DNA of 33,382 bases from contig CALVUI010000001.1 of assembly GCA_944363565.1 (NCBI GenBank), forward strand, positions 558,350 through 591,731. The letters run 5' to 3'. Below are positions 7,613 through 23,833 of this stretch, in pieces. Position numbers and translations under genes: made by a program. Positions within the stretch are counted from its first letter, which is position 1, and every line of letters starts with the position of its first letter. The notes under the pieces are model-generated. The model saw only the letters and a program-made list of their open reading frames with translations, was not told the origin of the DNA and made no database searches. Origin of the DNA: an uncultured Bacilli bacterium. GTDB taxonomy: Bacteria > Bacillota_I > Bacilli_A > RFN20 > CAG-826.

Positions 7613-8272
7613 CTATCCAAGGATTATCCTAACTATATTTGGGAAATCACTAGGCCCAAGGGCCACCGCTTCGGGGGCCTTGGCTTTCCCAAAGCCATAA
7701 GAGGCATGGACGAAGGGTAAACCGGCCTTATGGGTTTCCTCTTCGTCATGGAGGGTATCGCCGATATAGAGGGCCTTCTCTAGTTTTTCTTCCTTGATAA
7801 GGATAGCGAGGTTTTCGGCCTTGTCCAAATTATCGTCCCCGAAGCAAAGGTGCCTCTTAATGCAGGGGGCAAAGGAAGCGTTGCTTAGCATGGCCTCGAT
7901 GTAGCCGCTTTGGCAGTTGCTCAAAATATAGACCGGATAGCTTTGGGCGATTTCCGGTATCGCCTCGGAGATCCCTTCGAAAAAGCGGCCCGGATGTAAA
8001 CGCAGGTAGGAATTTTCCCCTTCCATCAAACGGGCCATGATCTCCTCCCTCTTGAGGCCTCCTAGGGACGAGGGAACCAGACGCTTGGCAATCTCATCCA
8101 TCGCTAGGCCCATGACCGAGGCCAACATCTGAGGCGTCATCTCATAGGGTCTCCCGGCGATTTGACTAAGGGTCAAAGCCCAGGATTCCGCGACTTCCTT
8201 CGAGCTATTCCAGATGGTGCCGTCGACATCGAAAATGACGGCCTTATAAGGGTTGTAATTCAAATTATCCAT
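7613..8272 (-). CDS. HAD-superfamily hydrolase, phosphoglycolate phosphatase-like
   Basis: A 219-residue phosphatase of HAD subfamily I. Motif I is FDVDGTIW (D-x-D-G-T, about residues 15-22). Motif II is YILSNCQSGY, with the Ser after the hydrophobic strand. Lys in the KAENLAIL region serves motif III, and motif IV is ALYIGDTLHDEE (G-D-x3-D). A helical cap lies between motifs I and II. Such enzymes hydrolyse small phosphate esters such as phosphoglycolate; the true substrate cannot be told. It follows the pyrophosphatase gene by 16 bases in the same direction and has no recognisable Shine-Dalgarno, so it is probably co-transcribed. Its 3' end faces the Xre gene across about 30 bases with no clear terminator. 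Confidence 0.85.
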   Translation of the reverse strand: MDNLNYNPYKAVIFDVDGTIWNSSKEVAESWALTLSQIAGRPYEMTPQMLASVMGLAMDEIAKRLVPSSLGGLKREEIMARLMEGENSYLRLHPGRFFEGISEAIPEIAQSYPVYILSNCQSGYIEAMLSNASFAPCIKRHLCFGDDNLDKAENLAILIKEEKLEKALYIGDTLHDEEETHKAGLPFVHASYGFGKAKAPEAVALGPSDFPNIVRIILG

Positions 8273-8288
8273 GCAAAAGGAAGATCTT

Positions 8289-8828
8289 TTATTGGTATTC
8301 CGGGAAGGTCTCGTCGTAGAGGCGGCGGCACTCGGCGATCACCTCCTGCGCTTCCTTTGGCCCCATATAGCCTTCGACCGAGGTCGACTTCCCGTGTTCG
8401 AGTTCCTTGTAGACCGAGAAGAAGTGGGTGATTTCCTCTTCGACGTGGTCCGGCAGTTCCTGGATCGAGGAGAACTGGCCATAGAAGGGATCGGAGAAGG
8501 GGACGGCCAGGATCTTGGCATCTCCCCTACCCCCATCGACCATCTTGATCATCCCGATCGGCCGGCAATAGACGAGGGCCAAGGGGACGATGGGGCCGCT
8601 GGAAATCACCAGGACATCGAGGGGGTCGCCGTCATCGGCGTAGGTCCTCGGGATGAACCCGTAGTTATGGGGATAATGGGTCGCGGTATAAAGGAAGCGA
8701 TCGAGGATGAGGGCCCCGGATTCGTGGTCGATCTCGTACTTGGCCGAACTCCCGGCCGTGATCTCGATGGCCGCGTAGAAGGCCTCGGGGGTCTGCTTTT
8801 TCTTTTCGACGCTGTGGATCAGGTTCAT
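8289..8828 (-). CDS. ppa: Inorganic pyrophosphatase, family I
   Basis: A 179-residue soluble enzyme that hydrolyses pyrophosphate to two phosphates and so drives biosynthetic reactions. The family I signature D-G-D-P-L-D-V is present as DDGDPLDVLV (D66, D68 and D71 bind metal). It is preceded by the N-terminal core with SSAKYEIDHESGALILDR and YPHNYGFIPRTYADD, which hold the conserved Lys, Glu, Arg and Tyr. EEITHFFSVYKELE completes the fold. Length matches bacterial enzymes (about 175). The ATG at 8828 lacks a Shine-Dalgarno; a TAGACT box lies 14 nt upstream, giving a leader of only a few nucleotides. It is divergent from the membrane protein gene at 8899. Confidence 0.95.
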   Translation of the reverse strand: MNLIHSVEKKKQTPEAFYAAIEITAGSSAKYEIDHESGALILDRFLYTATHYPHNYGFIPRTYADDGDPLDVLVISSGPIVPLALVYCRPIGMIKMVDGGRGDAKILAVPFSDPFYGQFSSIQELPDHVEEEITHFFSVYKELEHGKSTSVEGYMGPKEAQEVIAECRRLYDETFPEYQ

Positions 8829-8885
8829 GTTTGCTCTGCCATAGTCTAACCTTTGGGGGCCCTTTATGCATCTAGGGAAGGAAGA

Positions 8886-8891
8886 TAGAAT
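8886..8891 (+). promoter_or_regulatory. -10 box of the 8899 gene, leaderless geometry with GTG start
   Basis: TAGAAT ends 7 nt before a GTG that is in frame with the open reading frame. The nearest upstream ATG (8890) overlaps the -10 box itself and so cannot be in the transcript. Confidence 0.6.
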
Positions 8892-8898
8892 GGAGCCC

Positions 8899-9609
8899 GT
8901 GAAAAAACCTTACCGTCTCCCCTATGGGGTCCTCTGGGCCATCTCTATTCTTTTCGGCCTCGTCATGCTGGCCGGTTTCGCCGGCCTCTTCGTGGCCGCC
9001 TTCCTTCAAAGCGAACATGATGTCGGGGACCTCGACGACATCATCGGCTTTCTAAGCGTTGGCCTTATGGTCCTTGGCTGCTTCGGCCTTGGCATCTCCC
9101 TCAATTACCTCTACCCCCGTTACCTCGAACGGAAGGAAAGGAAACTGATGGCCCTCAAGGTCAAGAAGGTCCCCCTTCCTTCCATCGAACTCGAAAAGAT
9201 GATCGCCTCTTGGACCCCGATTGAAGGGGAAGATGGGGTCTACCGCCTTAACCTCCCCAAAGGGAGCCTCGACATCGTGATAAAGGAAAACGGGGAAATC
9301 CCCAGCGACGAGGAAATCGACACCTACATCCTCATGAGCGAATATCGGAAAGGCCTGGAAGCCCCCAAGACCGTCCTCTTCCTGGTGAGAAGCGACCTCT
9401 TGGAAGGCCTAAACAAAGACCGCCTCAAGAAGGCGATGGGACGGGTCGCGGCCCTTTACGACGGATGCGATGCCCTCCCCCTCATCTTCTTCCATGCCGA
9501 GTTCGGCGGCCATCTTTATTACGCCTTGCCTAGTCTCAAAAAGAGTTCCTTCCCCCAAGCAGTCCTCAATTACTTCGAGCCAAAGAAAAAGGCCGCCGAA
9601 GCGGCCTAA
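8899..9609 (+). CDS. Membrane protein with two N-terminal helices and a cytoplasmic domain, unknown function
   Basis: About 236 residues from the GTG at 8899. Two membrane segments (LWAISILFGLVMLAGFAGLF and the GFLSVGLMVLGCFGLGISLN region) are followed by the basic stretch YLERKERKLMALKVKK and a soluble domain of about 150 residues with alternating strands and helices. No family is recognised. ATGs at 8866 and 8890 are possible, but a TAGAAT box at 8886-8891 argues for the GTG as a leaderless start. The last codons (KKKAAEAA) overlap the terminator hairpin of the convergent lipoprotein gene. Confidence 0.7.
   Translation: MKKPYRLPYGVLWAISILFGLVMLAGFAGLFVAAFLQSEHDVGDLDDIIGFLSVGLMVLGCFGLGISLNYLYPRYLERKERKLMALKVKKVPLPSIELEKMIASWTPIEGEDGVYRLNLPKGSLDIVIKENGEIPSDEEIDTYILMSEYRKGLEAPKTVLFLVRSDLLEGLNKDRLKKAMGRVAALYDGCDALPLIFFHAEFGGHLYYALPSLKKSSFPQAVLNYFEPKKKAAEAA
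9582..9607 (-). terminator. Rho-independent terminator of the lipoprotein gene
   Basis: On the minus strand AGGCCGC-TTCG-GCGGCCT (9607-9590) forms a perfect 7-bp stem with a stable UUCG tetraloop. A T-rich tail, TTTTCTTT, follows. It lies 16 bases past the lipoprotein stop and inside the 3' end of the convergent gene. Confidence 0.85.
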
Positions 9610-9622
9610 TGTTCTTGGCTTA

Positions 9623-10816
9623 TCAGGCAGTGAGGTCGATGTAGCCTTCGCCCGGAACCCAGTCGTCCTGGGCTTCGGTCCCGCCTTCGAGGGCGAGTTT
9701 CATATCGAGATCGACATCGATGTCCATCGTGCCCTCAGTTCCGAAAAGCGCCGAAGTATCGATGGCGCCCTTGGCGGTAAGCCCGGCCACCTCGAGACCG
9801 AGGTAGGAGCCGTCTTCCTTATAGGAAAGGGCAATCTGGAAGTCGGCGATGGTGAGGTCCTCGAACATCGCTTCGATGCTGGCGATCACCTGTTCGAGCA
9901 TGGCGGAATCGACGGGTTGTCCATCGGGCATCACGGTGAAGACCGTGTTGTAGGCGATTAGGTAAACCATGTCGTCCTTGAAGGCTTCCCCGTCGAAGGC
10001 CACTTCCATGGAGTAGAGGTCCTCGGCCAACTTGTTGTAGGCCACGGTCGCGGACTCGAGGTCCTCGAGGGCGGCCGGAAGTTCCTTCACGAGGGGCAAG
10101 AGAGTTTCGCCGTAATTGGTCGGGATGTGGACGGTGTAATCGACGGCGCCGGGGATCAACAACTGGGTCGGAAGTTCCTCGGGTAGTTGCTGGCCGCCGG
10201 TGAATTCCTCGAGGGCAGCCCGCATGAGGCCTTCGGTCAGATCAAGGTAAACGGTCCCTTCCTTGACGTGGATGGCCTCGTCGAGGGTCAAGGGCCCGAT
10301 GGAGGTTTCGGTGGCCGCAGCGGTTATGTAGTGGATACCATAATCATCAGCGTAGCCGAATTCTTCGACTACCTCATCGGTATTGTGGTTGTAATGGTGG
10401 CTAACGACGTCGAGCTTGATCCCGCCCTTGATGGTGGCAGCCACATAAAGGGGATCGGAGACGGTCGTGCCGGTCGTGTCGCCCGGCAGGTGGTCGAGGT
10501 GGGCATCGACCTTCAGAGTATCGAACTCGAAGGCCATGTTGGAATAGGAATAGACGGGGAAGGTTTCGGCGGCCGGATCGGTCGGATCGAGAGAGCCGTT
10601 CTCCACGACGAGGGCATCTTGAAGGAGCTTCACGTGGCCATCGATCTCGAGGCCGGCGTCGAAGGAATCGAGGTCGAGCTTGCCAACCGCCCCTTCGAGG
10701 GCGGCCATCGCCTCTTCCTTGGTGATCTCGACGGCCGGGGGCGTCGAGGGTTCGGTCGGCCCGCAGGCCGCCAAAAGCATGGCAAGCGGCAGGACATACA
10801 GTAGTTTTTTGTTCAT
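9623..10816 (-). CDS. Secreted lipoprotein of unknown function
   Basis: A 397-residue protein that begins MNKKLLYVLPLAMLLAACGP, a classic lipoprotein signal peptide with an L-A-A-C lipobox (Cys18), so it should be lipid-anchored outside the membrane. The mature part is acidic and has a long run of beta-like segments (for example GLEIDGHVKLLQDALVVENG and DYTVHIPTNYGETLLPLVKE). A second related region appears near the C-terminus (QIALSYKEDGSYLGLEVAGL), which suggests a large lipid-binding-type or beta-sandwich fold. No family is recognised. AGGAG lies 7 nt before the ATG, an unusually clear ribosome binding site for this window. It is downstream of the pho operon on the same strand but has its own promoter region with a dyad. 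Confidence 0.8.
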   Translation of the reverse strand: MNKKLLYVLPLAMLLAACGPTEPSTPPAVEITKEEAMAALEGAVGKLDLDSFDAGLEIDGHVKLLQDALVVENGSLDPTDPAAETFPVYSYSNMAFEFDTLKVDAHLDHLPGDTTGTTVSDPLYVAATIKGGIKLDVVSHHYNHNTDEVVEEFGYADDYGIHYITAAATETSIGPLTLDEAIHVKEGTVYLDLTEGLMRAALEEFTGGQQLPEELPTQLLIPGAVDYTVHIPTNYGETLLPLVKELPAALEDLESATVAYNKLAEDLYSMEVAFDGEAFKDDMVYLIAYNTVFTVMPDGQPVDSAMLEQVIASIEAMFEDLTIADFQIALSYKEDGSYLGLEVAGLTAKGAIDTSALFGTEGTMDIDVDLDMKLALEGGTEAQDDWVPGEGYIDLTA

Positions 10817-10847
10817 GTTTTTCTCCTAAATTGCTGGATGTTGTATA

Positions 10848-10870
10848 CCCCCTTATATCGGATAAGGGGG
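10848..10870. promoter_or_regulatory. Perfect 9-bp inverted repeat upstream of the lipoprotein gene, possible operator
   Basis: CCCCCTTAT, a 5-nt spacer, then ATAAGGGGG: a perfect dyad between phoR and the lipoprotein gene. On the minus strand it ends directly at TATACA, a plausible -10 for the lipoprotein gene, so it covers the -35 region. There is no T-run on either side, so it is a poor terminator and a better candidate for a protein-binding site. Confidence 0.5.
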
Positions 10871-10903
10871 CTGACGTAAAGCAAAATAATTTGCAAAGAG
10901 GAC

Positions 10904-12178
10904 TCAGGGGAGGCTGACCGTGACCTTGGTCCCCTTCCCCAAAGAGCTTTGTATTTCGACCTTGCCCCCGTAACGGAGGACGATGTGCTTGACGATCGAG
11001 AGGCCGAGACCCGTGCTTTCCGATTCCCGGTTATGGGAGGCATCGACCCGGTAGAACCGTTCGAAGACCCGGGGCAAGGATTCCAAAGGAATCCCCTGCC
11101 CGTCGTCCTCGACGTAGAAGCCGTTTTTATTTAGGACCACCGCGACCTTGCCGCCATCCTTCCCGTACTTCAAAGAATTCTCGATGAGGTTCTTGAGCAG
11201 GAAGTAGGCATCCCTCTCTTCCATTAAATAAGAGAAGGTCCCTTCGATGGAGACCTTGGCACGTTTCTTTGCAATTGTCGGTTCCAAGGATAAAAGGCAA
11301 TCGTTGTAGATCTGACGGAAATCGACCACGTTCTTGGGGCTCGGCTTCGTATTCTCGAGGCGGCTCAAGCGAAGCATGTCTTCCACCAGGACCGAGAGAC
11401 GCCGGGCTTCCGACTCGATGTGACCGATGGCCTCATTCAAGGAAGGATCCTTGTTTTGGAGGGAGAGGATTTCCGAAAAGCCGCGGATGGTGGCAAGGGG
11501 CGTCTTCAGCTCATGGCCGAGTGAAGAAGAGAAGGAGGAACGGATGTCCTCCCCCTTGGCCTCGTAGGAGATGTCGGCGACCGCGATGATGAGGCCCTCG
11601 TGGTAAGGGGTCGAAGTCAGTAGATACGTCTTGCCGTTACGGTCGATCGTGGCCCGAAAGCCCTGGACCGCGGCAATCTTCCTCGAGATTTCCTCGGGCA
11701 GCATCAAATCGGTATAGGTCCTCTCGGGCCGTGGGACCAGTTCGAAGTAACGGAGCAAGGCCCCGTTCGCGTAGCCCATCTTCCCGTCTTTGTCGAAGTA
11801 GGCGATCCCCTCCCCGACGTTTTCGAGCATTTCCTCGAGGCTCCGGTTGTCTTCTTCGAGGCTATTTAGACGTTCCCTGGTCTTCCCTTCCTTTTCCTTT
11901 AATTCGGCCAATAACGAGGCGCTGGCCTCATCGAGATCCGAGGGCCTTTCGCCCTTTTCGAGATAGTCCTTGATCTTATTTACGTCCTTCCTTTGCCCCC
12001 TGAGGACCAAATATGGGATCAGATAGGAAACGACGACCAGGACCAAAAGCAAAAAGGCGGCCAGGACGTAGTAACCTACCTCGAGGCCAGGACCCGTCAA
12101 AGCCAAGGCCAAAATGATGGCGAGGCCTAGCAAAAACGACGCCAACGAAGAGAAAAAAGGTAGAAATTTCCGCTTCAT
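10904..12178 (-). CDS. phoR: Phosphate regulon sensor histidine kinase PhoR
   Basis: A 424-residue membrane kinase. Two hydrophobic segments (about 8-28 and 36-58) are separated by a very short loop, so there is no extracellular sensor domain. A helical linker and a PAS-like domain (about 115-205, ENVGEGIAYFDKDGKMGYAN) follow. The HisKA phosphoacceptor is H222 in GHELKTPLATIRGFSEIL. The HATPase domain has the N box (LLKNLIENSLKYG), G1 (YVEDDGQGIP) and G2 (STGLGLSIVKHIV). The ATG at 12178 is chosen because it overlaps the regulator stop as ATGA. Lack of an external domain fits a kinase that reads phosphate status through the Pst transporter and PhoU. It is the last gene of the pst-pho operon. 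Confidence 0.92.
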   Translation of the reverse strand: MKRKFLPFFSSLASFLLGLAIILALALTGPGLEVGYYVLAAFLLLVLVVVSYLIPYLVLRGQRKDVNKIKDYLEKGERPSDLDEASASLLAELKEKEGKTRERLNSLEEDNRSLEEMLENVGEGIAYFDKDGKMGYANGALLRYFELVPRPERTYTDLMLPEEISRKIAAVQGFRATIDRNGKTYLLTSTPYHEGLIIAVADISYEAKGEDIRSSFSSSLGHELKTPLATIRGFSEILSLQNKDPSLNEAIGHIESEARRLSVLVEDMLRLSRLENTKPSPKNVVDFRQIYNDCLLSLEPTIAKKRAKVSIEGTFSYLMEERDAYFLLKNLIENSLKYGKDGGKVAVVLNKNGFYVEDDGQGIPLESLPRVFERFYRVDASHNRESESTGLGLSIVKHIVLRYGGKVEIQSSLGKGTKVTVSLP

Positions 12179-12837
12179 TGGAGGACGAAGCCGACCCCCC
12201 GGACGGTCTTGAGGCTCCCCCCGTGGGAACCTAGCTTCCTCCTGAGGGAAGCGACGTGGACGTCGAGGGTCCGGGTTTCGATTTCCTCGTTGATGTCCCA
12301 AACCGCGGATAGCAAATAGCTCTTGCTAAGGACCTCGCCACGATGGGAATAAAGGTGCTTCAATAGGTCGTATTCCTTGAGGGTCAGCTTCAGGGCTTCC
12401 CCGTCGAGATAGAAGGCGTGTTCGGCTTCCTTTAATACCAAGCCGTCCTCCGTGGCTTCCTTTTGGCTCCTCCTTAGTAGGGCCTTGATCCTGGCGATCA
12501 ACTCGAGGACCCCGAAGGGCTTGGGGAGATAGTCATCGGCCCCGCCTTCGAGGCCGGCAACCTTTTCGCTTTCCTCGCCCTTGGCCGAGACGATGATGAC
12601 CGGGAGTTCTTTGTAGACTGTTTCCTGTCTCAGGCTCCTAAGGATGTCGAGGCCATCCTCCCCCGGCAGCATGAGGTCGAGGAGCAGAAGGTCGGGTTTT
12701 TGCTCTTGAAGGCCCCGGAACAAAGCCTTCCCGCTTTCATAGAGGCGGTATTCGAAACCACCGAGTTTGAGGGCGGCGGCGTAAAGTTCGAGGATCCCCT
12801 TGTCGTCGTCGAGGGCGTAAATCAAAGGCATCTTCAT
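12175..12837 (-). CDS. phoB: Phosphate regulon response regulator, OmpR family (PhoB/PhoP)
   Basis: A 220-residue two-domain regulator. The receiver domain has the acidic pocket (D10-D11-D12), the phosphorylation site D54 in LLLLDLMLPGEDG, and the conserved Ser and Lys in VIIVSAKGEE and YLPKPF. The C-terminal winged helix (about 125-220) includes LTLKEYDLLKHLYSHRGEVL and TLDVHVASLRRKLG, the recognition helix region of OmpR-type proteins. The start at 12837 overlaps the phoU stop as ATGA. It is expected to be phosphorylated by the kinase encoded immediately downstream and to bind the direct repeats found upstream of pstS. Confidence 0.93.
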   Translation of the reverse strand: MKMPLIYALDDDKGILELYAAALKLGGFEYRLYESGKALFRGLQEQKPDLLLLDLMLPGEDGLDILRSLRQETVYKELPVIIVSAKGEESEKVAGLEGGADDYLPKPFGVLELIARIKALLRRSQKEATEDGLVLKEAEHAFYLDGEALKLTLKEYDLLKHLYSHRGEVLSKSYLLSAVWDINEEIETRTLDVHVASLRRKLGSHGGSLKTVRGVGFVLQ

Positions 12838-13475
12838 TTGAGATAACCGGCTCCCGTCACCGAATAATCGACCCATTCCCCGAGGTTGACGGCGTGGTCC
12901 GCCATCCTCTCGAGATACTTGGCGATGAGGGAAGAAACCAAGGCCAGTTCGGGATTTTCCCCGGCCTTGATGTCCTTGATGGCGTCTTCCCTGACCTTTA
13001 GGAAAAGGGCATCGATCTTGTCATCGTCCTTATCAAGGCCCCGGGCCTTTTCCAAATCGGAATTGATGAAGCAATAGACGGCCTGGTGGACGAGGTCGCG
13101 GACGTAGGTGGCAAGAAGTCTTAGGTCTTCGTCGAGATGGACATAGGGAGTCTTGAGGGCCGTGATTTCCTCGGCGATGTCGACGGCGTAGTCCCCGATC
13201 CTTTCAAGGTCGGTCGCCATCTTGAGGGCGCTGCTGACCTGGAGGAAGTCGCTGGCGTAAGGCGAATCGAGTAACAAGATCGAAAAGCACTTCTTTTCGA
13301 GTTCATTGGTCAGGCGGTCGATCTCGTCATCGCCCTTGATGACCTTCTCGGCGTCTTTGCTAAGGCCCTTTTCCAGGGACGCCAAAGCCCCGTCGATGGC
13401 CCCTTCGACCTTGAGGCTCAGGGCGTTGAGGAGGGAGCGGACTTCCCCGATTTGCTCATTGAAGCGTTTCATCAT
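12834..13475 (-). CDS. phoU: Phosphate signalling protein PhoU
   Basis: A 213-residue all-helical protein made of two PhoU repeats. Each carries the metal-cluster motif of the family: [18 protein letters not shown] in the first half and [18 protein letters not shown] in the second. PhoU links the Pst importer to the PhoR kinase and keeps the regulon silent when phosphate is plentiful. Two consecutive ATG codons begin the gene; the first overlaps the pstB stop. The position between pstB and the regulator genes is the standard arrangement. Confidence 0.95.
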
Positions 13476-14263
13476 CCAAACCTCCCGGTGATGTAAGACA
13501 GGGTCCTTTCATCCTGTGGGTGCGAGAATATGGCGGTGGTGGGGGCCTCTTCCACCAGTTCGCCCATCAGGAAGAAGGCCGTGCGGTCGGCGATTCGAGC
13601 CGCCTGTTGCATGTTGTGGGTGACGATGACGATTCCGATTTCCTTCTTCAACTCCCCGATCAGTTCCTCTATTTTCGCGGTTGAGACCGGGTCGAGGGCG
13701 CTGGTGGGCTCGTCAAGGAGGAGGATCGAGGGCGAGGCACTTAAGGCTCTAGCGATGCAAAGGCGCTGCTGCTGGCCTCCCGATAGGGCGAGGGCGCTTT
13801 CCTTCAAGCGGTCCTTGACCTCGTCGTAGATCGAAGCCCTCTTGAGGGAAGATACCACAATCTCGTCCAGTTCGTCCTTCTTTTTTATCCCGAAGGTCCG
13901 GGGGGCATAGGCGATGTTGTCGTAGATGCTCATCGGGAAGGGATTGGGCTTTTGGAAGACCATCCCGACCTTGCGGCGGAGATAAGGGACGTCAAAGCCC
14001 TTCTGGTAGATGTCTTGGCCCCCGATCTCGACCTTGCCTTCGACCCGGCAGCCGTCGATCAGGTCGTTCATCCGGTTCAGGGTCCGTAGGAAGGTCGACT
14101 TCCCGCAACCACTGGGGCCGATGAAGGCCTCGACCTGTTTTTCCTCGATACTAATCGAGACGTTTTTGAGGGCCTGCTTTTCCCCGTAGTAGAGATTGAG
14201 CTCCTCGACTTTGATCTTGAATCCGTCGAAGACGGGTTCGTCGCTGATTCTAGGCTTTCCCAT
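13472..14263 (-). CDS. pstB: Phosphate ABC transporter ATP-binding protein PstB
   Basis: A 263-residue ATPase that powers phosphate import. Walker A is GPSGCGKST (49-57), the Q-loop lies in [20 protein letters not shown], the signature is LSGGQQQR (160-167), Walker B is [13 protein letters not shown] and the H-loop is in [10 protein letters not shown]. The [10 protein letters not shown] block after the Q-loop is characteristic of PstB. The gene overlaps the 3' end of pstA by 14 bases and the start of phoU by 4, indicating coupled translation. Length is typical (about 250-270). Confidence 0.97.
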
Positions 14264-15101
14264 AGCCCTTCCCCCTTAGTAGACGTTCGGCCAATAGGGC
14301 CAAGAGGTTGATGAAGATGACGAGAAGCAAGAGGACGACCGAAGTGGCGGCCGCCTCTTCCGGCATTCCGAAGTTCGAGAAGTAATAGATGTCGAGGGCC
14401 AAACTGGTCCCGGCGCTTAGCATATCCCCCGGAACCTTGTTGACCACCATCCCGATGGTGAGGAGAAGGACGGCGGACTCGCTGATGACGCGGCCCGAGG
14501 CCAAGATGCAGCCGGTGACGATGCCAGAACTTGCCGAAGGCAAGACGACCTTGAAGACGGTCCGTGACTTCTGGGCCCCAAGGGCCAGGGAGGCTTCCCG
14601 AAGGGACTTCGGGACCGAAACCAAGGCCTCTTCGACAGAACGGACGATGAGGGGCAGGATCATGAGGAAGAGGGTCAAGCCCCCACCGAGCAAGGAATAT
14701 CCCCAGCCAAAACCGACCACGAAGACGAGGTAACCAAAGAGTCCATAGACGATCGAGGGAATCCCCGAGAGGGTTTCGGTGGCCAGCCTGATGGCCTTGA
14801 CGAGCTTCGATTCGGATTTGCTGTATTCGGAAAGAAAGATGGCGCTCCCGATTCCGATCGGTAGACCGAGGGCCAAGGCAATGAGCAAGAGTTCCAAAGT
14901 TCCCACGATGGCAGGCCAGATGGAAATCAGATCCGGGGCCCGGTAGGGACCAAAGAGGAAGTCCCAGGTCAGATACCCCATCCCATCGACGAGAATGTAG
15001 ATGATGATACCAAGCAAAGCCACGTTCGAAAGGATGAGGGAGAGATAGGTCACTCCCTTGAGGCTCAGGCCCAGATAACGCGATAGCCCCTTCCTAGACA
15101 T
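14250..15101 (-). CDS. pstA: Phosphate ABC transporter permease PstA
   Basis: A 283-residue inner membrane permease with about six membrane segments. It has the binding-protein-dependent transport (EAA) loop [20 protein letters not shown], which contacts PstB, and the conserved [18 protein letters not shown] segment of PstA/PstC proteins. It pairs with PstC to form the phosphate channel. It overlaps pstC upstream by 8 bases and pstB downstream by 14. Confidence 0.95.
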
Positions 15102-15969
15102 GTTTCATCTTGCTCCTGAAAAGAGCGAAGACCCCGTTGATGAGGAGGGTCAAAACAAAGAGGACGACCCCGCAGGCTACTAAGGCCGTGAGGTCATCGC
15201 CGGTCAATTCCATGGCCCCCATGGCGATGTTGGCAGTAAGGGTCCTTACCGAAACCGTGAGGCCGGTCGGATAATTGACGGAACCGCCGAGGACGAGGAT
15301 GACCGCCATCGTTTCACCGAGAGCCCGGCCGCAACTGAGGACCAAGGCCGCGAAGATACCGCTTTTGGCGGCCGGGACCATGATCTTGAAGACGGCTTCT
15401 TCCTTGGTCGAACCTAGGGCCAAGGCCCCTTCGTAATACATGGGGTCGGTGGCGTTCAAAGCATCGAGGCTCATCGAGACCATGGTCGGAAGGACCATGA
15501 TCATGAGGACGATCGAAGCCGACAGGATCCCATAGCCCGAGGCATTGAGACTGAGGTAGTCGGCGATGAAGGGAACGACCACCGATAGGCCGAAGAGGCC
15601 ATAGATGACCGAGGGGATGCCGGACAACAAATTAATGCAAAACCCGACCGGTTTCTTCAAAAAACGGGGTAGGAACTTGTAGATGCAGATGGCGGTCAAT
15701 AAGCCAAAGACCCCACCGCCCAGGGTCGCCATCGCCGTCAGAACCAGGGTCGTGACCAGCATGGCGGCGATCCCGTAGGAACCGGCATTGAGGTTCCAGA
15801 CCGAGGAGAAAAGGAACTTGTCGATCCCGGTTTGGAAGATGAAGGGCAGGCCGTTGGCGAAAAGATAGACCGTGATGACGATGATGGCGAAGATGGCAAA
15901 AAGGGCGCAGAGGAAGAGCGCCCACTTGATAATCCCTTCTTTTGTTCTAGCGAGGGTTGCCGAGGTCAT
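15094..15969 (-). CDS. pstC: Phosphate ABC transporter permease PstC
   Basis: A 291-residue permease with about six membrane segments. It contains LLSGIPSVIYGLFGLSVVVP and the cytoplasmic EAA-type loop (DPMYYEGALALGSTKEEAVF), followed by CGRALGETMAVILVLGG, the conserved PstC segment with the charged R and E in the translocation path. The ATG at 15969 is chosen since it overlaps the pstS stop as ATGA; an upstream in-frame start would lie inside pstS. Its partner is PstA. Confidence 0.95.
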   Translation of the reverse strand: MTSATLARTKEGIIKWALFLCALFAIFAIIVITVYLFANGLPFIFQTGIDKFLFSSVWNLNAGSYGIAAMLVTTLVLTAMATLGGGVFGLLTAICIYKFLPRFLKKPVGFCINLLSGIPSVIYGLFGLSVVVPFIADYLSLNASGYGILSASIVLMIMVLPTMVSMSLDALNATDPMYYEGALALGSTKEEAVFKIMVPAAKSGIFAALVLSCGRALGETMAVILVLGGSVNYPTGLTVSVRTLTANIAMGAMELTGDDLTALVACGVVLFVLTLLINGVFALFRSKMKHV

Positions 15970-16829
15970 CCGATGACTTCCTCCCAACTCCTGATCGGAT
16001 CTTCGGCCTCGGAGTCGTAGATGGTCTTGAGGTCACTTAGGGAAATGTCCTCGATCGGATTGCTGAGGTTGACGATGATGCCGATCCCGTCCTTGGCCAC
16101 GGTGAAGGGAACACAGCTCGGGGCTTTATCTTGAGCAAACTCCTCGCTGATCATCCCAAAGACCGAGACCCCGTTTTCCCCGTTGCTGTAGCCAACCCCG
16201 GACCCCCCGCCGTTGACTTCGACGCTGACCTTGGGACAGATATCCTCGAATTCCTGGGCCAAGAGGACCATGAGGGGTTGGAGGGAAGTCGAGCCGGAGA
16301 TCGAGATGGTGCCCTCGAGATTATCGGGAACGACGAACTCCTCCCCTTCCCGCATCGAGACGTAGCCGTTTTCGGCGATGATCTCCTGGGCTTGACTAGA
16401 GGCAAGGAAGTCGAGGTAGGCACTATAGAGGGGGTTTCCTTCGACCGTCGCTTCCTTGTAGACGACGTTGAGGGGGCGGGCGATCTTGTAGTCTCCGCTT
16501 TGGATGTTTTCGACCGTTCCTTCGACCCCGTCGACCGAGATCTGTTTGACCTCGTCGGTCAGGTAGCCAAGGCTATCGTAGGCGATGGCGTACATCGAGT
16601 TCTTGACCCCGGCCAAAACCGCCGCCGTCCCTTGCTGGATGATGGCGTTTTGGACATCGGGCTGGCCCTTGAGGCCGATGATTTCCATGAAGGCGGCCTT
16701 GGTCCCCGACCCGTCTTCCCGGGTGATGACCTGGATCGGTTTGCTGCTATCGAATTCCTTGGCTCCGCAGGAACTGAGGGTCAAGGAGGTGAGGAGGGTC
16801 AAGGCGGCGATGGCGGCGATGGATTTCAT
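15966..16829 (-). CDS. pstS: Phosphate-binding lipoprotein PstS with permuted domain order
   Basis: A 287-residue lipoprotein (lipobox L-S-S-C, Cys21) that captures phosphate outside the membrane and delivers it to PstCA. Both PstS signature blocks are present but in reversed order. The phosphate-binding R-x-D-G-S-G-T block (37-43, after PIQVIT) and the G-Y-L...V-E-N-I-x-S-G-x-Y-x-x-A-R-P-L region (to about 120) come first. The SGSTSLQPLMVLLAQEF block (178-194) and GGGSGVG (207-213) come last. The chain ends in RSWEEVIG, the sequence that in ordinary PstS directly precedes the R-x-D-G-S-G-T strand. The simplest reading is circular permutation with a new signal peptide at the break. A ribosome binding site (AGGGGA) precedes the ATG. 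It is the first gene of the operon, downstream of a Pho box. Confidence 0.9.
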   Translation of the reverse strand: MKSIAAIAALTLLTSLTLSSCGAKEFDSSKPIQVITREDGSGTKAAFMEIIGLKGQPDVQNAIIQQGTAAVLAGVKNSMYAIAYDSLGYLTDEVKQISVDGVEGTVENIQSGDYKIARPLNVVYKEATVEGNPLYSAYLDFLASSQAQEIIAENGYVSMREGEEFVVPDNLEGTISISGSTSLQPLMVLLAQEFEDICPKVSVEVNGGGSGVGYSNGENGVSVFGMISEEFAQDKAPSCVPFTVAKDGIGIIVNLSNPIEDISLSDLKTIYDSEAEDPIRSWEEVIG

Positions 16830-16927: not shown

Positions 16928-16950
16928 GTCAAACTCCAGCCAATAGGTGC

Positions 16951-16956
16951 TAAAAT
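16951..16956 (+). promoter_or_regulatory. -10 box of the GT-C glycosyltransferase gene, leaderless geometry
   Basis: TAAAAT ends 8 nt before the ATG at 16965, with no Shine-Dalgarno between. No good -35 is seen, and the position where it should be adjoins the Pho box, so activator dependence is possible. Confidence 0.5.
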
Positions 16957-16964
16957 CCTATTTT

Positions 16965-18473
16965 ATGAAGGGGAAAATCGGACGCGCCGTCCTGACCATC
17001 GCCATCGAGGTCATCTTGGCCTTGGCAATCGGCTACCTCGGGACCTATTTCTATTCCTATGCCCTCTCTCCCCTTTATAACGCCCCCAACGGCATCGGGA
17101 CCGATGGGAACATCACCGCCGTCCTCGGCCACTTACTCGCTAACGGGGGCATCCCCTATGTCGATGCCTTGGATCACAAGGGACCCTATGTCTTCTACTT
17201 TGCCTACCTAGCCATCACCATCCATCCAGTTTGGGGCCTCTTCATCCTCCAGGGCCTCGGGAACGCGGTCATCGCCTTCTGCCTCATCGACATCGCCAGA
17301 CGCCTGAAGATCAAGAGGGGCTGGCTCCTTCTATATTCCTGCATCGCCTTTCTCGGCGTCTTCCTCGTCAACGAAGGGGCCGCCACCGACAGTGCCTTCG
17401 CCCCCGTTAGCTACCTGGCAGTCTATCTCTTTTTCTTGGCCTATAGTTCCGGGAAACGCCTCCACCTGGCCCTTGCCGTCTTCTTCGACGGCCTCTTCCT
17501 AGGGATCGCCGCCTTCAGCCGCCTCAGCAACGTCATCCCCGAGGTCGCGGTCGCCATCGGCCTCGTCTGCGTAGCCGTTTGTAGCAAAAGACCGAAGGAT
17601 CTTTTCCTTTATGTCCCCCTCGGTTTTGCGGGGATTTTGATAACTTGCCTCATCCCTATCCTCATTTCCTACTCGGGAGGCTACCTCGAGGAAATGCTCC
17701 TATGGACCTTCGAGAAGAACTTCGTCTACGCCGGAGAGGTCGAGGGCTTCAGCCTCGAAGGGGCGGTCGTTTTCCCCCTGGCCCTCTTCTTCGCCATCCT
17801 TTCGCTTTGTTTCATCATCCCGACCAGGAAGTGGCTCTCCTCCTTCAACAAGGGCCTCTTCCCCTTCCTTCTGATATCTCTCATCCTTCTAACCATCGAC
17901 TTCGGGGTCTTCTCGAACTTTTACCACTACATGGCCCACGGCTATCCCTTCTATCTCCTGGTCTTTGCCTATTTCTGTTCCTATGCCTCGCTCCACTGGA
18001 AAAGAAAGTTCGTGGAACTGAGATGGTTCCTCACTTCCCTAGCCATGATCTCCGCGGTGGCCTATGTCGGCATCATGACCGGTTACTACTACGTCAACGA
18101 CCACGTCTCCTCCTACAACTACGTCCTCAAGGAAAAGGAACTCACGGCCAAGGACTACATCGAAGAGCATTATTCGGGAGAAGGGGATCCCGAAGTCTAC
18201 GCGATTGATTGCAATTGCTCGGTCTATCTCAATCTCGGTTACTACCCCGACTACCCCGTCTTCTCGACCCAGACCTGGTGGCTCAGCAATGGGGTTTTGG
18301 AGGAGAAGCGAGGAATCATCGACTACGTGGACTCGAAGGTCGATTACCTCTTCCTCGGGGTCCATTCCTCCTTCCTCAGGGACCTAGACTTCCAAAGCAT
18401 CCTCGAAGATGGCTTCCAGAAGATCGAAGAACTGACCTGCCCCGACTCCTTCTACTTCTACGAACGGATATGA
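16965..18473 (+). CDS. GT-C fold glycosyltransferase, family 39 (PMT/ArnT-like) membrane protein
   Basis: A 502-residue polytopic membrane protein with about ten to eleven hydrophobic segments. The first extracellular loop has D47 and then GIPYVDALDHKGP (62-74), the G-x-(V/I)-P-Y-x-D-x-x-D-x-K-G-P block typical of GT39-type enzymes, which move sugars from polyprenyl-phosphate donors onto acceptors at the outer membrane face. The C-terminal 110 residues form an extracytoplasmic domain (YIEEHYSGEGDPEVYAIDC). The acceptor is unknown; cell wall polymers, lipids or proteins are all possible. Start chosen by the TAAAAT box 8 nt upstream. It is divergent from pstS and may share the Pho box, which would fit cell envelope remodelling under phosphate limitation, but that is inference. 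Confidence 0.78.
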   Translation: MKGKIGRAVLTIAIEVILALAIGYLGTYFYSYALSPLYNAPNGIGTDGNITAVLGHLLANGGIPYVDALDHKGPYVFYFAYLAITIHPVWGLFILQGLGNAVIAFCLIDIARRLKIKRGWLLLYSCIAFLGVFLVNEGAATDSAFAPVSYLAVYLFFLAYSSGKRLHLALAVFFDGLFLGIAAFSRLSNVIPEVAVAIGLVCVAVCSKRPKDLFLYVPLGFAGILITCLIPILISYSGGYLEEMLLWTFEKNFVYAGEVEGFSLEGAVVFPLALFFAILSLCFIIPTRKWLSSFNKGLFPFLLISLILLTIDFGVFSNFYHYMAHGYPFYLLVFAYFCSYASLHWKRKFVELRWFLTSLAMISAVAYVGIMTGYYYVNDHVSSYNYVLKEKELTAKDYIEEHYSGEGDPEVYAIDCNCSVYLNLGYYPDYPVFSTQTWWLSNGVLEEKRGIIDYVDSKVDYLFLGVHSSFLRDLDFQSILEDGFQKIEELTCPDSFYFYERI

Positions 18474-18475
18474 AA

Positions 18476-18506
18476 AGGCGGAACCATGAGGTCCCGCCTA
18501 TTTATT
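18476..18506. terminator. Bidirectional terminator between the glycosyltransferase and jetC
   Basis: AGGCGGAACC-ATGA-GGTCCCGCCT (18476-18499) forms a 10-bp stem with one mismatch. It is followed by ATTTATT on the plus strand and by TTTTC on the minus strand, so it can end both convergent transcripts. Confidence 0.75.
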
Positions 18507-18517
18507 GATGTGAAGGT

Positions 18518-21500
18518 TTATTCGCCTTGGGTCTCTTCGACCGGGGTTTCGGCCACTTCCTTCTTCCCTCCTTGGTAGCAGGTCAGGCGTTCGTTGCGAC
18601 TGACGAGGACCAAGGTCGAGTCGATGTGGTCGGCCAGGTAGGAGAACCGGGAAGTCGGGACCGAGACCAGGAGTTGGATGTCGAGGGAACGGTAGAATTC
18701 CATCATGTCCTCGATGCGGTCGGAGTCCATGTTGTTGAAGGCCTCGTCGAGCATGACGATTTCGCAGGGCGAGGAACCGCTTCTCTTCTTGAGCTCGAAG
18801 GCCGAGTCGAAGCTGGCGGCGATGAGGACGTAGAACGGAGTCTGGGTCTCACCACCGGACCGGGCCCTGACGTTATCGCTGTAGCGCTTCTCCTGGCCGT
18901 CCGGGGTCGTCTCGACGATGTCGTAGCTTAGGTAGTTACGGTAATCGCAGAAGCGTTCGATCGTTTCGGCACTGGACTCGGAGGGGCTGTCACTCGAGAG
19001 GATCGAGAAGAGGTAATCCATGGTCGAGCGGTTCTCCCCCGAGAGCAAGGAGGAGAGGAGGCCGTTTTGGTAATAGTCCTCGCTCGTATTGACGGCGATG
19101 TCGTAGATCTTCCGGAGTTCCGGATCCCCGGTCGGCTTGACCACGAAGCGGTAGATGGAACGGGCCGAGCCGAAGGGGTGGCGCTTCAGGGTGGCATTGA
19201 GCTTCTTGATCTGGAGTTCGGCCTGTTCGATGTTGCTCCTTAGACCGACCAGGAAGCCGGACTTGAAGTTTTCGACCGCGACCATCGAGGCCTGTTCGGC
19301 TTTGCTCCGGACCGAGACCAAACTATCCTTGGTGATCTTCTGGTAACGTTCGAGGTAAAGCGGGAGGTTTTCGAGGACCGGTTCGATGTCGGAGGAATTG
19401 AACTTGTCATTGTAACTCGACATAAGCCGGACGATCTTCCGTTCGGACTCGGAAAGCAAGCGCTTGTTGGCTTCGTGCTCTTCCTTCATCCGGGAGTAAG
19501 CCGCTTTCCCATAGCCCTTGAGCTTATGCTCGGCCAGGTCTTTGACCAGCGGATCGGCGTGCTCGTAGACGTAGTAGTCATAGGACTTCTTGGCCTCTTC
19601 CTTGGCCTTCATGGCCTGCTCGAGAGCCAAATTGAAGCGGCCCCGTTCTTCGAAGAGCGCATCGCGCTTCCCGAAGAGGGCTTCCTGTTCTTCCCTTAGG
19701 ACCTTTTCCTTTTCCTCGATGGTGGCGATGGCATTGGCGAACTTGGTGAGGTCCTCCTGCTCCATCGAATCCTCGTAGGCCTTGATACGGGAAAGGGTAT
19801 CTTCCTTCTTGGCCTTGAGGTCGTCTTCTTCCTTCCATGAGGAGGCCAGGCCTCTGAGGGCCAAGGGGTCGAGGCGGAGGGACAATGAGTATTTTTCTTC
19901 GATTGGCGTCAGTTCGCCTTCGAGTTCGGCGATCCGCTTGCTGAGGTCGGCATAGCGGTCCTTGAGTTGTTGGAGCTGACGGGAGATCGACTCGGCCCCG
20001 ATGACCGGCATGAAGTCCTTTTCACGCACGATGTAGCGGACCGAGGTCCCGTCGTAATAAAGGCCGTCCTTGGTCAGCCACTTGTACTCTCCTATTCCTT
20101 CCGGAGCCTCCACCGCCTTGATGTCGCCAAGGAGGTAGTCGATGTAGCCGCGGACCAAGGGCAATTCGTCATTGTCGCGGCCCATGACGGCGGAACGAAG
20201 AAGATCCGCCACGGAGTTTTCGACCTTGAAGGGGATGTCGCCTAGAGAAGAGGCATCGATGATGCCGGGGGCATCCTGGCCCCTAAGTTCCGGGTGGAGG
20301 GCGATGAGCCTGGCCGCTTCGGCGTAATAGCGTTGGGGCAAGAAGGCATCGTAACGCCTCCCTCCTAAGAAACACTCGATGGTCTCGTCCCAACTTTCGT
20401 CGGTGATCTCGAGGCAATCGCAAAGGGGCGTCAGGGCGAAATCGCCTTCGAGCTGGAATCGTTCCTTGAGGAGTCGATAGAGTTCTTTTACACCGGCCGG
20501 GAAGTCGCGTTCATGGTTTTGGAGGGTGGCGATCTTCGGAGCCAGGATCTTCAGTTCCTCGAGGAGGTTCTCGCGGTTTTCCTTGATGCCCGCGCCTTCG
20601 GTCCTCAGTTGATTGCGGGCCTGGGTAAGAGCGGCCTCGAAGCCTTCGATGGCCTTCCTTAAAGCGGCCGGATCGCGTTTTTCCAGAAGATTATGGAACT
20701 TGGCGCTTAGGCCCAAGGCCTTGGCCCCTTCATCGAGTTCGAGGGCCACTTCGCCTAGACGCGTTTCATCCGAGGCGATGGTCTCGAGGCGCGAATCGAT
20801 GAGGGAGACGTCGCCACGGAGACGAGAGATCTCGTTTCTTTGGTCACGACTTTCAAGGGCGGCCCTTTCTTGCCGTAAGGAGGCGAGGTTTTCGTTGATC
20901 TCAAGACGCCGGGACTCTAGTTCCTTTTCCTTTTCACGAAGGGAAGAGAGGTCTTCCTCGGCCTTCTTCCGGCCTTTCTCGGCTTCTTCGACGCTTAACT
21001 GGAGGTCGAGGAGTTCGAGGGCTTCCTCTTCCTTGAGGGCGGCGTTTCTTTCTTCGCTGAGGCTAAGAAGGGGCAAGAGGGCCTGGGCCTTTTCCTCTTC
21101 GTGCTTGAGGAGGGTGGCGATATCTTGATAGGCCTTGGCCGCTTCCTTTACCTCGTCGAGGGAGACGTTCCGCTTCTGGAGCAGGAAGTCATTGGTGAAT
21201 TCGAGGAGGTCGGCATTGGGGTCGAAGGCAATCGCCGACGAGAGCAAGGTCTCATATTCATCCGGCAAATCGAGGCTCCTTCTGACCTGGGCATAGGAGC
21301 TCGAAAGGGTCTGGGCCTCGAGGGGGATGAAGGGCAAGCCTTCCGCGGTCGCGACTTTTCTTAAGCCTTCGTAACCCAAAACGGCCTTGCTACCGTCGTC
21401 GCGGGTTTCGAAGAAGAGGGAATCCTTGATTTCCCCACGCAGTTCGTAGAATTTGGCGGGCAGCAAAACCCCGCCGGTGATCTGGAGGACGCAACCTAGA

Positions 21501-21826
21501 GTCACGGGGCTATTGCCATCGAGGAACTCGAGGGCGAGGTGGGTGATGATGTCCCCTTCGGGCCGGAGGTATTCCCGTCCCACTGCCCCGATACGGGCCC
21601 GCATGTAGGTCTCGACCGTTCTCCTGGAGCCCGATAAGCCATTGCGGGAGGCCATGTTGAACTTCCGTTGGGCCAAGCCCCCGGACAGGACGTAATGGAT
21701 GGCGTCGACCAAGGTCGACTTCCCGGAACCGTTGTCCCCGGAAATGAGGAGGTTCCCGCGGATCTCGATCGTCTGGTTGGCAAAGAGGTGCCAGTTAATC
21801 AGCTTGACTCGGGTTAGCTTCTTCAT
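18518..21826 (-). CDS. jetC: JetC/MukB-like SMC ATPase
   Basis: A 1102-residue SMC-family ATPase. Walker A is GDNGSGKST (30-38) near the N-terminus. The C-terminal head has the ABC signature ARSGGETQTPFYVLIAASF and Walker B IVMLDEAFNNMD followed by DSDRIEDMMEFYRSLDIQLL. Between them are long charged coiled-coil arms (about 260-360 and 620-790) around a hinge region. With JetA and JetB it forms the motor of a Wadjet/MukBEF-type condensin that extrudes DNA loops; in Wadjet this recognises small circular plasmids. The ATG at 21826 is chosen over the one at 21832 because GGAGG is 8 nt upstream of it. It overlaps jetB by 32 bases. No jetD follows: the next gene is convergent after a terminator. 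Confidence 0.9.
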   Translation of the reverse strand: MKKLTRVKLINWHLFANQTIEIRGNLLISGDNGSGKSTLVDAIHYVLSGGLAQRKFNMASRNGLSGSRRTVETYMRARIGAVGREYLRPEGDIITHLALEFLDGNSPVTLGCVLQITGGVLLPAKFYELRGEIKDSLFFETRDDGSKAVLGYEGLRKVATAEGLPFIPLEAQTLSSSYAQVRRSLDLPDEYETLLSSAIAFDPNADLLEFTNDFLLQKRNVSLDEVKEAAKAYQDIATLLKHEEEKAQALLPLLSLSEERNAALKEEEALELLDLQLSVEEAEKGRKKAEEDLSSLREKEKELESRRLEINENLASLRQERAALESRDQRNEISRLRGDVSLIDSRLETIASDETRLGEVALELDEGAKALGLSAKFHNLLEKRDPAALRKAIEGFEAALTQARNQLRTEGAGIKENRENLLEELKILAPKIATLQNHERDFPAGVKELYRLLKERFQLEGDFALTPLCDCLEITDESWDETIECFLGGRRYDAFLPQRYYAEAARLIALHPELRGQDAPGIIDASSLGDIPFKVENSVADLLRSAVMGRDNDELPLVRGYIDYLLGDIKAVEAPEGIGEYKWLTKDGLYYDGTSVRYIVREKDFMPVIGAESISRQLQQLKDRYADLSKRIAELEGELTPIEEKYSLSLRLDPLALRGLASSWKEEDDLKAKKEDTLSRIKAYEDSMEQEDLTKFANAIATIEEKEKVLREEQEALFGKRDALFEERGRFNLALEQAMKAKEEAKKSYDYYVYEHADPLVKDLAEHKLKGYGKAAYSRMKEEHEANKRLLSESERKIVRLMSSYNDKFNSSDIEPVLENLPLYLERYQKITKDSLVSVRSKAEQASMVAVENFKSGFLVGLRSNIEQAELQIKKLNATLKRHPFGSARSIYRFVVKPTGDPELRKIYDIAVNTSEDYYQNGLLSSLLSGENRSTMDYLFSILSSDSPSESSAETIERFCDYRNYLSYDIVETTPDGQEKRYSDNVRARSGGETQTPFYVLIAASFDSAFELKKRSGSSPCEIVMLDEAFNNMDSDRIEDMMEFYRSLDIQLLVSVPTSRFSYLADHIDSTLVLVSRNERLTCYQGGKKEVAETPVEETQGE

Positions 21827-22442
21827 CTTCATTTCCTCCGATGTATTTGCTTAGTCTTTCCTCGAGTTCGCTGAGGGAAGAACTGTCGACCAGGACCACG
21901 ATGCTGTTGTAGATGGCGATCTGGGTATCGCCCTTGGCCGGATCGTCCTGGAAGTCGATGACCTTGTAGCGTTTGAGGGTCGATAAGGCCGACTTGAACT
22001 CGGTCATCGTCACCCCGTCGGGATAGATTTCCGTTTCGTTGAGTTTCTTCAGGACCTCGTCGACGGTGACGATCACCGCGTTGTAGGAAGCGACCTTCCT
22101 CTCGCCCCGGTAGGAAAGGGAGCGGAAGAGAAGCAAGAGGACCGTCTCGAGTTTCCTTAGACGGAGGCGGTTCCTTTCGTTGTCCCCCTTGATGTAGCAA
22201 AGGCGCTTTTCCTTGTCGACGATGAAGGAGACGTCGATGAAGCGGAAGTAGTCCTCGAGGACGGCTTTGTAGGAGCCGGTGGCCACGTAGTAATCGTCCT
22301 GGTCCTGCTTCTTGTCTTGGACCAGGAAGGTTTCGTTTAGTAGCCTCATGACGATTTTCGAGAACCGTTCGCATTTCGATTCGGAGGAGGCGAGGACCCC
22401 GAATTTTTCCTGGAAGTCGGAAAGGACATTGAGTTTTCCCAT
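21795..22442 (-). CDS. jetB: JetB/MukE-like KITE subunit (DUF4194 type)
   Basis: A 215-residue protein with the winged-helix KITE arrangement. The N-terminal half includes ERFSKIVMRLLNETFLVQDK and YKAVLEDYFRFIDVSFIVDK. A central block, RLRLRKLETVLLLLFRSLSY, is followed by VTMTEFKSALSTLKRYKVID, a typical winged helix. In Wadjet and Muk complexes this subunit binds the kleisin and DNA. The gene is 3 bases after jetA, has a good Shine-Dalgarno (AAAGGAG), and overlaps jetC. The C-terminal tail is acidic (GGNEDEEANPSQAD). The assignment relies mainly on size, fold pattern and position between jetA and jetC. Confidence 0.87.
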   Translation of the reverse strand: MGKLNVLSDFQEKFGVLASSESKCERFSKIVMRLLNETFLVQDKKQDQDDYYVATGSYKAVLEDYFRFIDVSFIVDKEKRLCYIKGDNERNRLRLRKLETVLLLLFRSLSYRGERKVASYNAVIVTVDEVLKKLNETEIYPDGVTMTEFKSALSTLKRYKVIDFQDDPAKGDTQIAIYNSIVVLVDSSSLSELEERLSKYIGGNEDEEANPSQAD

Positions 22443-22445
22443 CTT

Positions 22446-23819
22446 CTAGTCTCCTTTCTTTTCAATGAGATAGTCGTCGAGGACATAGTCCCCGAGTTCG
22501 AATTTTTCGCCGGTCGGCTCCCCGATGCTATAGCCCTCGGGGGCATAGGCCGGGGCCAGGGACAGCTTGATGAAGCCGTCCAAACCTTCTTGGTGGAGCT
22601 CGGAGGCGTACTCGCTATTAGCGTCCATGCAGGAGGCTAAGAAGTCGATGATCGAGGTCTTGCCGTAACGCCTTTCTTCCCGGAGGAAGCGTTCGGCCCG
22701 TTCGATGGCCTCGGGATCTTCTTCCCCTTCCACGAAGGGAACTTCGCCCGGGGCCTTCTTTTGGAGGAACCGCGGCTTATAGATCGATTCGTTGGAGATG
22801 ATGCTGACGTTATAGGGGGCGAAGGGGGTATCGATCTCCGCGTCCTTCTTGACTTTCTTGAGGAGCTTGAGGGAGCGGTTGAGGGCCCCTTCGATGTCGC
22901 GGAAGTTGTTGAGGCGGAATTCGAGGATGGCCCTGGTGGCCTGGACGTAGCTCGTATTCCGCATCGAGATTTCCTTGATCTGGGACGGCATCCCCTCGAA
23001 GAGATCGAGGACGTTGTCGAGGACTTCGGAGACAAAGGAAGCGGCTTCCTTCCGCCCGTCATCGGTATCGTCGACGTGTTTGGTGGTCAGGTAATCGGCG
23101 ATGAGGCCGGCGTAGACCTCTTCTTCCTTGAGGTGCTCGACCGCCTTGATGATCTCGACGTGGCGGATCTCGGGATTGTGGGGACCTTGGAGGTTGTTGA
23201 GGGCCAAGAGGGCCGGATGCTTCTGGAATTCGACCAGAAGGGTATCGAGGATTTCCTTTTCGGTCTTCCCTTCTTCCTCGAGGGCCTTGGCCACGAAGCG
23301 CTTGATCTGGCTATTGACGGAAAGCAAATGGCGGTAGAGCTGGGCGCACTTGCTGCTGATTTGTTCAAGGGCCGCCGTCGACTTCTGGTAGTCGAAGTTG
23401 ACGAGGGAGCGGTAGATATCCTCGGTAAGGCCGAAGTATTCGTTGCTTCTTTCTTCTTCCTCGGCGATCTCGAGAAGAACCGGGACCGTCTTCATGAAGG
23501 CGTCGCTACGGCTTAAGCGATCGCTGAAGCCCTCCCCTTCTTCCTTATCGAGCCAGCCGTATTCGACCAGCCTCCTAAGGAAGGACCTAGCTTTCTCTAG
23601 CGGGGTCTTGGCCTCGACTTCGAAGTCGTCGATGACGTCCTTCTTCATCTGTTCGGCCAAATAGGAGGCCAGTTCCTCCCTCCCGACGTCGTAACGGAGG
23701 GGCCCGAAATAGTCGTCGATGAGGGCGATGAGGCGATAGCTCTCCTCGACGTTGCCGAGGGCTAAGACGCGGAAAAACTCCTTGGGGAGATTTCGAAATA
23801 GCGGCGGGAAGCGTTTCAT
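22446..23819 (-). CDS. jetA: JetA/MukF-like kleisin subunit (DUF5716 type)
   Basis: A 457-residue, strongly helical and acidic protein that begins MKRFPPLFRNLPKEFFRVLA, the start typical of JetA. It is the kleisin that should bridge JetC heads. Features include helical repeats (YLAEQMKKDVIDDFEVEAKT), the segment RRLVEYGWLDKEEGEGFSDR (wing-like), long helices from 150 to 330 and a C-terminal wing (SIIDFLASCMDANSEYASEL). The ATG at 23819 is preferred to an upstream TTG because a TATACT box lies 8 nt before it and the TTG overlaps that box. It is the first gene of the jetABC operon. Nothing upstream belongs to the system; no jetD is in the window. Confidence 0.87.
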   Translation of the reverse strand: MKRFPPLFRNLPKEFFRVLALGNVEESYRLIALIDDYFGPLRYDVGREELASYLAEQMKKDVIDDFEVEAKTPLEKARSFLRRLVEYGWLDKEEGEGFSDRLSRSDAFMKTVPVLLEIAEEEERSNEYFGLTEDIYRSLVNFDYQKSTAALEQISSKCAQLYRHLLSVNSQIKRFVAKALEEEGKTEKEILDTLLVEFQKHPALLALNNLQGPHNPEIRHVEIIKAVEHLKEEEVYAGLIADYLTTKHVDDTDDGRKEAASFVSEVLDNVLDLFEGMPSQIKEISMRNTSYVQATRAILEFRLNNFRDIEGALNRSLKLLKKVKKDAEIDTPFAPYNVSIISNESIYKPRFLQKKAPGEVPFVEGEEDPEAIERAERFLREERRYGKTSIIDFLASCMDANSEYASELHQEGLDGFIKLSLAPAYAPEGYSIGEPTGEKFELGDYVLDDYLIEKKGD

Positions 23820-23827
23820 CGGCGTTA

Positions 23828-23833
23828 AGTATA
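23828..23833 (-). promoter_or_regulatory. -10 box of the jet operon, leaderless geometry
   Basis: TATACT on the minus strand ends 8 nt before the jetA ATG, with no ribosome binding site between. A second -10-like TAGAAT lies about 16 bp further upstream and could drive a short-leader transcript. Confidence 0.5.

Follow-up and report, generated by a model that had tools for sequence, protein, structure and literature searches.

A type I Wadjet jetABC operon without jetD in an uncultured member of the Bacilli

The jetABC operon and its surroundings

The window analysed here is a 33,382-nucleotide stretch of DNA from an uncultured Bacilli bacterium, whose own genome is designated G000 in all genome comparisons. 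Three intact open reading frames on its minus strand, transcribed in the order jetA, jetB, jetC, encode type I Wadjet homologues. The jetA gene (22446..23819) specifies a kleisin subunit of 457 aa that matches PADLOC JetA1 (E 5.7e-47, 159 bits) and Pfam JetA (E 7.7e-47, 160 bits), jetB (21795..22442) a KITE subunit of 215 aa (PADLOC JetB1, E 9.4e-39, 131 bits; Pfam DUF4194, 71 bits), and jetC (18518..21832), which overlaps jetB by 38 nt, an SMC ATPase of 1104 aa (PADLOC JetC1, E 1.8e-194, 647 bits). These matches confirm the kleisin-KITE-SMC operon in Wadjet order that had been put forward in the original prediction. The ATPase motifs of JetC are intact (Walker A, GDNGSGKST; signature, SGGETQT; Walker B with D1029 and E1030), and the motif residues are invariant across the alignment. 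In profile comparisons JetC scored 158-163 bits against solved JetC of type I and 60-65 bits against MukB, full-length in each case. The AlphaFold model of JetA (mean pLDDT 82, pTM 0.52) has domain-level matches to MukF and JetA kleisins and a low overall TM-score, and that of JetB (mean pLDDT 86) matches the KITE proteins MukE and Wadjet JetB.

The jetA start is best set at the ATG at 23819, the same start as in relatives. A -10-like TATACT (23828..23833, minus strand), assigned by consensus match only, ends about 8 nt before this start codon, and TATAAT is found at a similar distance in six relatives, which suggests that jetABC may be expressed from a leaderless or near-leaderless transcript. 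At the other end of the operon, an inverted repeat at 18476..18499 (10 pairs, 7 of them G-C, with a T-rich tail on the minus strand) separates jetC from a convergent 508-aa open reading frame and is consistent with the terminator originally proposed there. The neighbouring EFR1 gene was likewise recovered (NCBIfam EFR1, 134 bits), while the gene at 16947-18473, labelled as a glycosyltransferase, had no match to any Pfam, NCBIfam or PADLOC family at E 0.01, which leaves that label unconfirmed. No defence island is evident in the window, as had been noted, where the only matches of this kind are weak ones to an HTH protein, a PLD-domain protein and RmuC. A cluster encoding a sensor kinase, a response regulator and phosphate-uptake-like (PstS) functions lies on the same strand as jetABC at 10904-16829.

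Searches for JetD and for canonical condensin

We searched for JetD with the Pfam JetD_C profile in the window's own genome and across a set of 61 genomes of its genus and order (G000 included). The jetD gene had been reported as missing from the operon, and none was found anywhere in the window. In G000 as a whole (about 95% complete, 9 contigs) the profile gave a single match below cut-off, a protein of 180-190 aa at C2:257938 that lies between tatD and ksgA and is RNase M5, not JetD. The operon has the three type I subunits and lacks the CAP/TOPRIM (DUF2220) subunit both beside it and in the remainder of the assembly, as expected if the Jet complex is nuclease-free. The original prediction would have been refuted by a jetD at another site that accompanies the operon in relatives; this did not hold, as only one of the 61 genomes, G006, had a match over cut-off (E 1.8e-22). 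That gene directly follows G006's own jetC, whose product is only ~29% identical to the window JetC; the detection of a true jetABCD operon in the same genus shows that the search works there. No JetD was found in the six window-type relatives (53-76% JetC identity), one of which is a single contig of 99% completeness.

In a public genome collection, 62 of the 80 nearest loci have jetD next after jetC. The other 18 comprise five from the window's genus, 11 from Acholeplasmatales, Tenericutes-labelled genomes or phytoplasmas, one that ends inside jetC, and one in a Eubacterium-labelled MAG (L078); in several of these 18 the contig ends shortly after jetC. The L078 locus (7874-13279) has jetABC with no downstream jetD, and a partial JetD ~7.5 kb upstream, where the locus begins. 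We also looked in JetB for the JetD-binding 'IFDR' motif, whose loss could have marked a lost contact with JetD, and none could be aligned confidently, even in JetB proteins from JetD-bearing loci.

Canonical condensin was judged by Smc (TIGR02168/SMC_prok_B) and ScpB profiles above cut-off, for which the controls worked. Neither cut-off was exceeded in any of the 61 genomes, including the window's own, a result of the genome search originally suggested that strengthens the idea of a nuclease-free complex. The window JetC itself scored 40.7 bits against SMC_prok_B (cut-off 567) and thus falls outside Smc-ScpAB. A search for further SMC-like complexes through the SbcC_Walker_B domain returned only JetC and ATPases of SbcC size or shorter, and in genus members without JetC, where another SMC might have stood in for it, we again found only these SbcC-sized or shorter ATPases and no further one of MukB/JetC type.

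Within the window's genus, JetABC is patchy and occurs in about 15 of 37 species. In the remaining ~22, which have no JetC or no complete JetA, no SMC complex can be recognised, even where the genome is 92-97% complete. Because the rest of the genus seemingly has no SMC complex, this distribution shows that JetABC is accessory there and not an essential condensin. In the other families of the order, all 24 genomes carry JetA and 23 carry JetC.

Inheritance and distribution of JetD-less JetABC

In the JetC tree the presence of JetD switches at least 10 times. JetD-less clades include an order-wide one, one of Acholeplasmatales, and those of families f26-f28, f10 and f14, and several JetD-less lineages of the window's genus nest among jetD-bearing relatives. 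Related Bacilli carry the nearest outgroups of the window's clade, and these are jetABCD operons. The JetC proteins of G011 and G022 cluster with that of the window (97%), to the exclusion of G032 and G018, whereas a core gene for a 1950-aa helicase-nuclease and the genes around it put G000 together with G007 and G004, both of which are without jetABC. Over 24 three-way ortholog sets, mean identity is 64% between G011 and G032 and 50% between G000 and G011; the corresponding JetC identities are 74% and 76%, and among 87 reciprocal best hits between G000 and G011 no pairs are more alike than those of JetA and JetB. Because JetC relationships thus conflict with those of the genomes, the window jetABC was acquired horizontally within the genus, without jetD, a conclusion drawn from sampled genome parts of ~400 kb each. 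Its movement into G000 without jetD implies that jetABC by itself performs a function open to selection.

Selection on JetC was measured in close pairs of JetD-less copies. Values of dN/dS were 0.045-0.089 among the window-type copies of G032, G018 and G026, 0.077 for G034/G027 and 0.014 for G038/G050, and such strong purifying selection indicates that these copies are functional and not remnants. The values rise to 0.42-0.46 in a more divergent JetD-less group (G012/G002/G019), and for the window copy itself synonymous sites are saturated.

We then turned to a class-wide sample of 198 genomes of Bacilli; with a single exception, completeness was 90% or higher and contamination 5% or lower. 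Of these genomes, 56 carried JetA, 94 had ScpB above cut-off and 15 carried JetD. JetD was absent from 44 of the 47 genomes with JetA and no ScpB, and an adjacent JetD was absent from three of the nine with both JetA and ScpB. Counted by genome, absence of JetD goes with absence of ScpB (Fisher p = 1.8e-4, a value inflated by relatedness), and a test of Smc loss against JetD loss by independent pairs had only two supported pairs and hence no power; the association rests on few independent lineages. Two of the three JetD-bearing, ScpB-less genomes (G141 and G222) also hold a separate JetD-less jetA.

The JetD-less, Smc-less pattern is seen in families f16 (which groups with Acholeplasmataceae on the JetC tree), f28, f27, f26, f10 and f3 and in part of f1, and the JetD-less form of JetABC is almost universal across several families without Smc, Acholeplasmataceae among them. 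The public-collection loci are in agreement. There, ten genomes from Acholeplasmatales, Tenericutes-labelled records or phytoplasmas, each with a JetD-less jet locus, were searched for canonical Smc, and none had it over cut-off; Haploplasma (Acholeplasmataceae), for example, has jetABC and neither jetD nor canonical Smc. Among the other public-collection loci, Smc is present together with jetD in Thomasclavelia, Clostridium manihotivorum and one other, and four Smc-less genomes still keep jetD. JetD-less JetABC occurs beside Smc-ScpAB in G179 and in family f14 (loci L121-L124, from G133, G115, G124 and G084); G133, and by JetD position G115 too, also has a complete JetABCD, an arrangement that resembles the situation of MksBEF in Pseudomonas. 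Two phytoplasma loci (L065:9385-13276 and L067:1224-5124), from genomes with no Smc, have jetB and jetC and no jetD, and the open reading frame directly upstream of jetB is HAD-hydrolase-like and not jetA; their kleisin may have been lost, have diverged or be encoded elsewhere. Finally, 57 of the 198 genomes lack both ScpB and JetA at the thresholds used, several of them at 99-100% completeness (G083, G094 and G123), and bacteria without any SMC complex are possibly among them.

A proposed nuclease-free loop extruder and its alternatives

On balance, we favour the reading that the window encodes a stand-alone, MksBEF/MukBEF-like Wadjet loop extruder that works without a nuclease in cells that lack Smc-ScpAB. 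The operon would specify a complete and functional type I motor whose JetD nuclease has been permanently lost. JetABC dimers would load onto DNA and, like Wadjet, use ATP to extrude loops, and with the motor intact and no nuclease to act, the cycle would be likely to end in compaction and not in cleavage, as judged from the biochemistry of Wadjet and MukBEF (PMC10586767, PMC10512200). JetABC would then serve as an auxiliary condensin for chromosome compaction and sister resolution, like MksBEF and MukBEF, and in several other Smc-less families of Bacilli its JetD-less form probably acts as the main condensin. Its near-universal presence in those families is most simply read as a chromosomal condensin role; in the window's genus, where JetABC is optional and mobile, either an auxiliary condensin or nuclease-free silencing of plasmids would fit. 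Weighing against a condensin role are the many members of the genus that lack JetABC, its JetD-less occurrence alongside Smc-ScpAB in f14 and G179, the few Smc-less genomes with jetD, and the small number of independent lineages behind the association of JetD with Smc. For the window complex itself, we infer a part in chromosome organisation only from the absence of Smc-ScpAB and of JetD.

Plasmid silencing without a nuclease is the main rival, which we regard as credible if rather unlikely: JetABC would sense small circular DNA by extruding it completely into a loop, and would silence or exclude it by compaction without cutting. An analogous silencing by compaction has been proposed for Smc5/6 acting on viral circles. 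The patchy, horizontally acquired jetABC of the genus is typical of defence genes, and it is through the motor that Wadjet senses DNA shape (PMC10586767), but JetD is required for plasmid cleavage in vitro (same review), the window shows no defence island, and the near-universal occurrence of JetD-less JetABC in the other families would be unusual for a defence system. It is very unlikely that a JetD is present and was missed, by lying outside an assembly that is ~95% complete in 9 contigs or by being too divergent for the profile. The true JetD of the same genus was easily detected, all seven window-type genomes lack the gene, the 99%-complete single contig among them, and jetD sits directly after jetC in 62 of 80 loci, the very position at which the window jetC ends with a terminator and a convergent gene. 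Also very unlikely is a decaying remnant of a Wadjet locus, as the loss of one subunit and the patchy distribution might indicate; all three open reading frames and the ATPase motifs are intact, JetA and JetB are the most conserved of the 87 reciprocal best hits with G011, and the strong constraint on window-type JetD-less JetC (dN/dS 0.045-0.089) refutes decay.

The original prediction also allowed for a different nuclease encoded elsewhere, which we examined and consider improbable. The candidate is a ~1950-aa DUF4011/SF1 helicase/REase_MTES_1575/DUF3320 protein (PADLOC PDC-S37, Hhe-like), encoded at L147:5604-11573 in G011 and on contig C3 (45047-50770) in G000. Its gene lies directly upstream of jetABC, on the same strand and with a gap of ~50 bp, in G011, G022, G018, G026, G032 and G029. 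However, the gene belongs to the genus core, and most genomes that lack jetABC have it as well. A hairpin resembling a terminator lies between it and jetA, as does a separate -10-like box, and the window jetABC does not adjoin it, so that it is not favoured as an operon partner; nor is there a common nuclease neighbour at other JetD-less jetABC loci. In G012 (L148:2536-5394), a 953-aa ATPase with MAD3/OLD-like matches is convergent to a JetD-less jetC, and it is not conserved beside other JetD-less jetABC.

Taken beyond the window, the data suggest repeated conversion of a defence machine into one that stands alone and folds chromosomes (or plasmids). Whether, in Bacilli without Smc-ScpAB (Acholeplasmatales and the window's uncultured gut order), Wadjet repeatedly and independently lost its nuclease and became the sole SMC condensin is, in our estimation, evenly balanced. 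If so, there would be, next to the parallel case of MukBEF, a second instance in which a defence SMC took charge of organising the chromosome. The proposed route from a chromosomal SMC to one of defence and back, until now argued on the basis of MksBEF and MukBEF, would become testable by comparison, which several separate nuclease losses within one bacterial class would allow, and Haploplasma offers culturable test organisms. Annotation of JetABC alone does not indicate plasmid defence. We found no description of JetD-less JetABC, or of Smc-ScpAB loss in Acholeplasmatales or RF39-like Bacilli, in the open-licence literature, which does not in itself prove novelty.

To place the window operon among known systems, we compared it with three of them. 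It shares with type I Wadjet (JetABCD) the homology of its subunits, the order jetA-jetB-jetC and overlapping genes, and differs in that its genome has no jetD, so that plasmid cleavage by the known mechanism would not be possible. Like MksBEF of Pseudomonas aeruginosa, it is a nuclease-less SMC-kleisin-KITE operon; however, its proteins are JetC1, JetB1 and JetA1 and fall below the cut-offs of both Pfam MksE (18.7 bits, cut-off 27) and Pfam MukB (18.2, cut-off 23), the MukF and MukE folds matched by the models are also shared with Wadjet, and most JetD-less JetABC cases seen here are in cells without Smc-ScpAB. With MukBEF of enterobacteria the parallel is that a complex related to JetABC and MksBEF replaced Smc-ScpAB in a bacterial lineage (PMC10586767), whereas the window JetC, at 1104 aa, is shorter than the 1482 aa of the full-length MukB that it matched, belongs to another phylum, and is part of a tree on which the presence of JetD changes at least 10 times.
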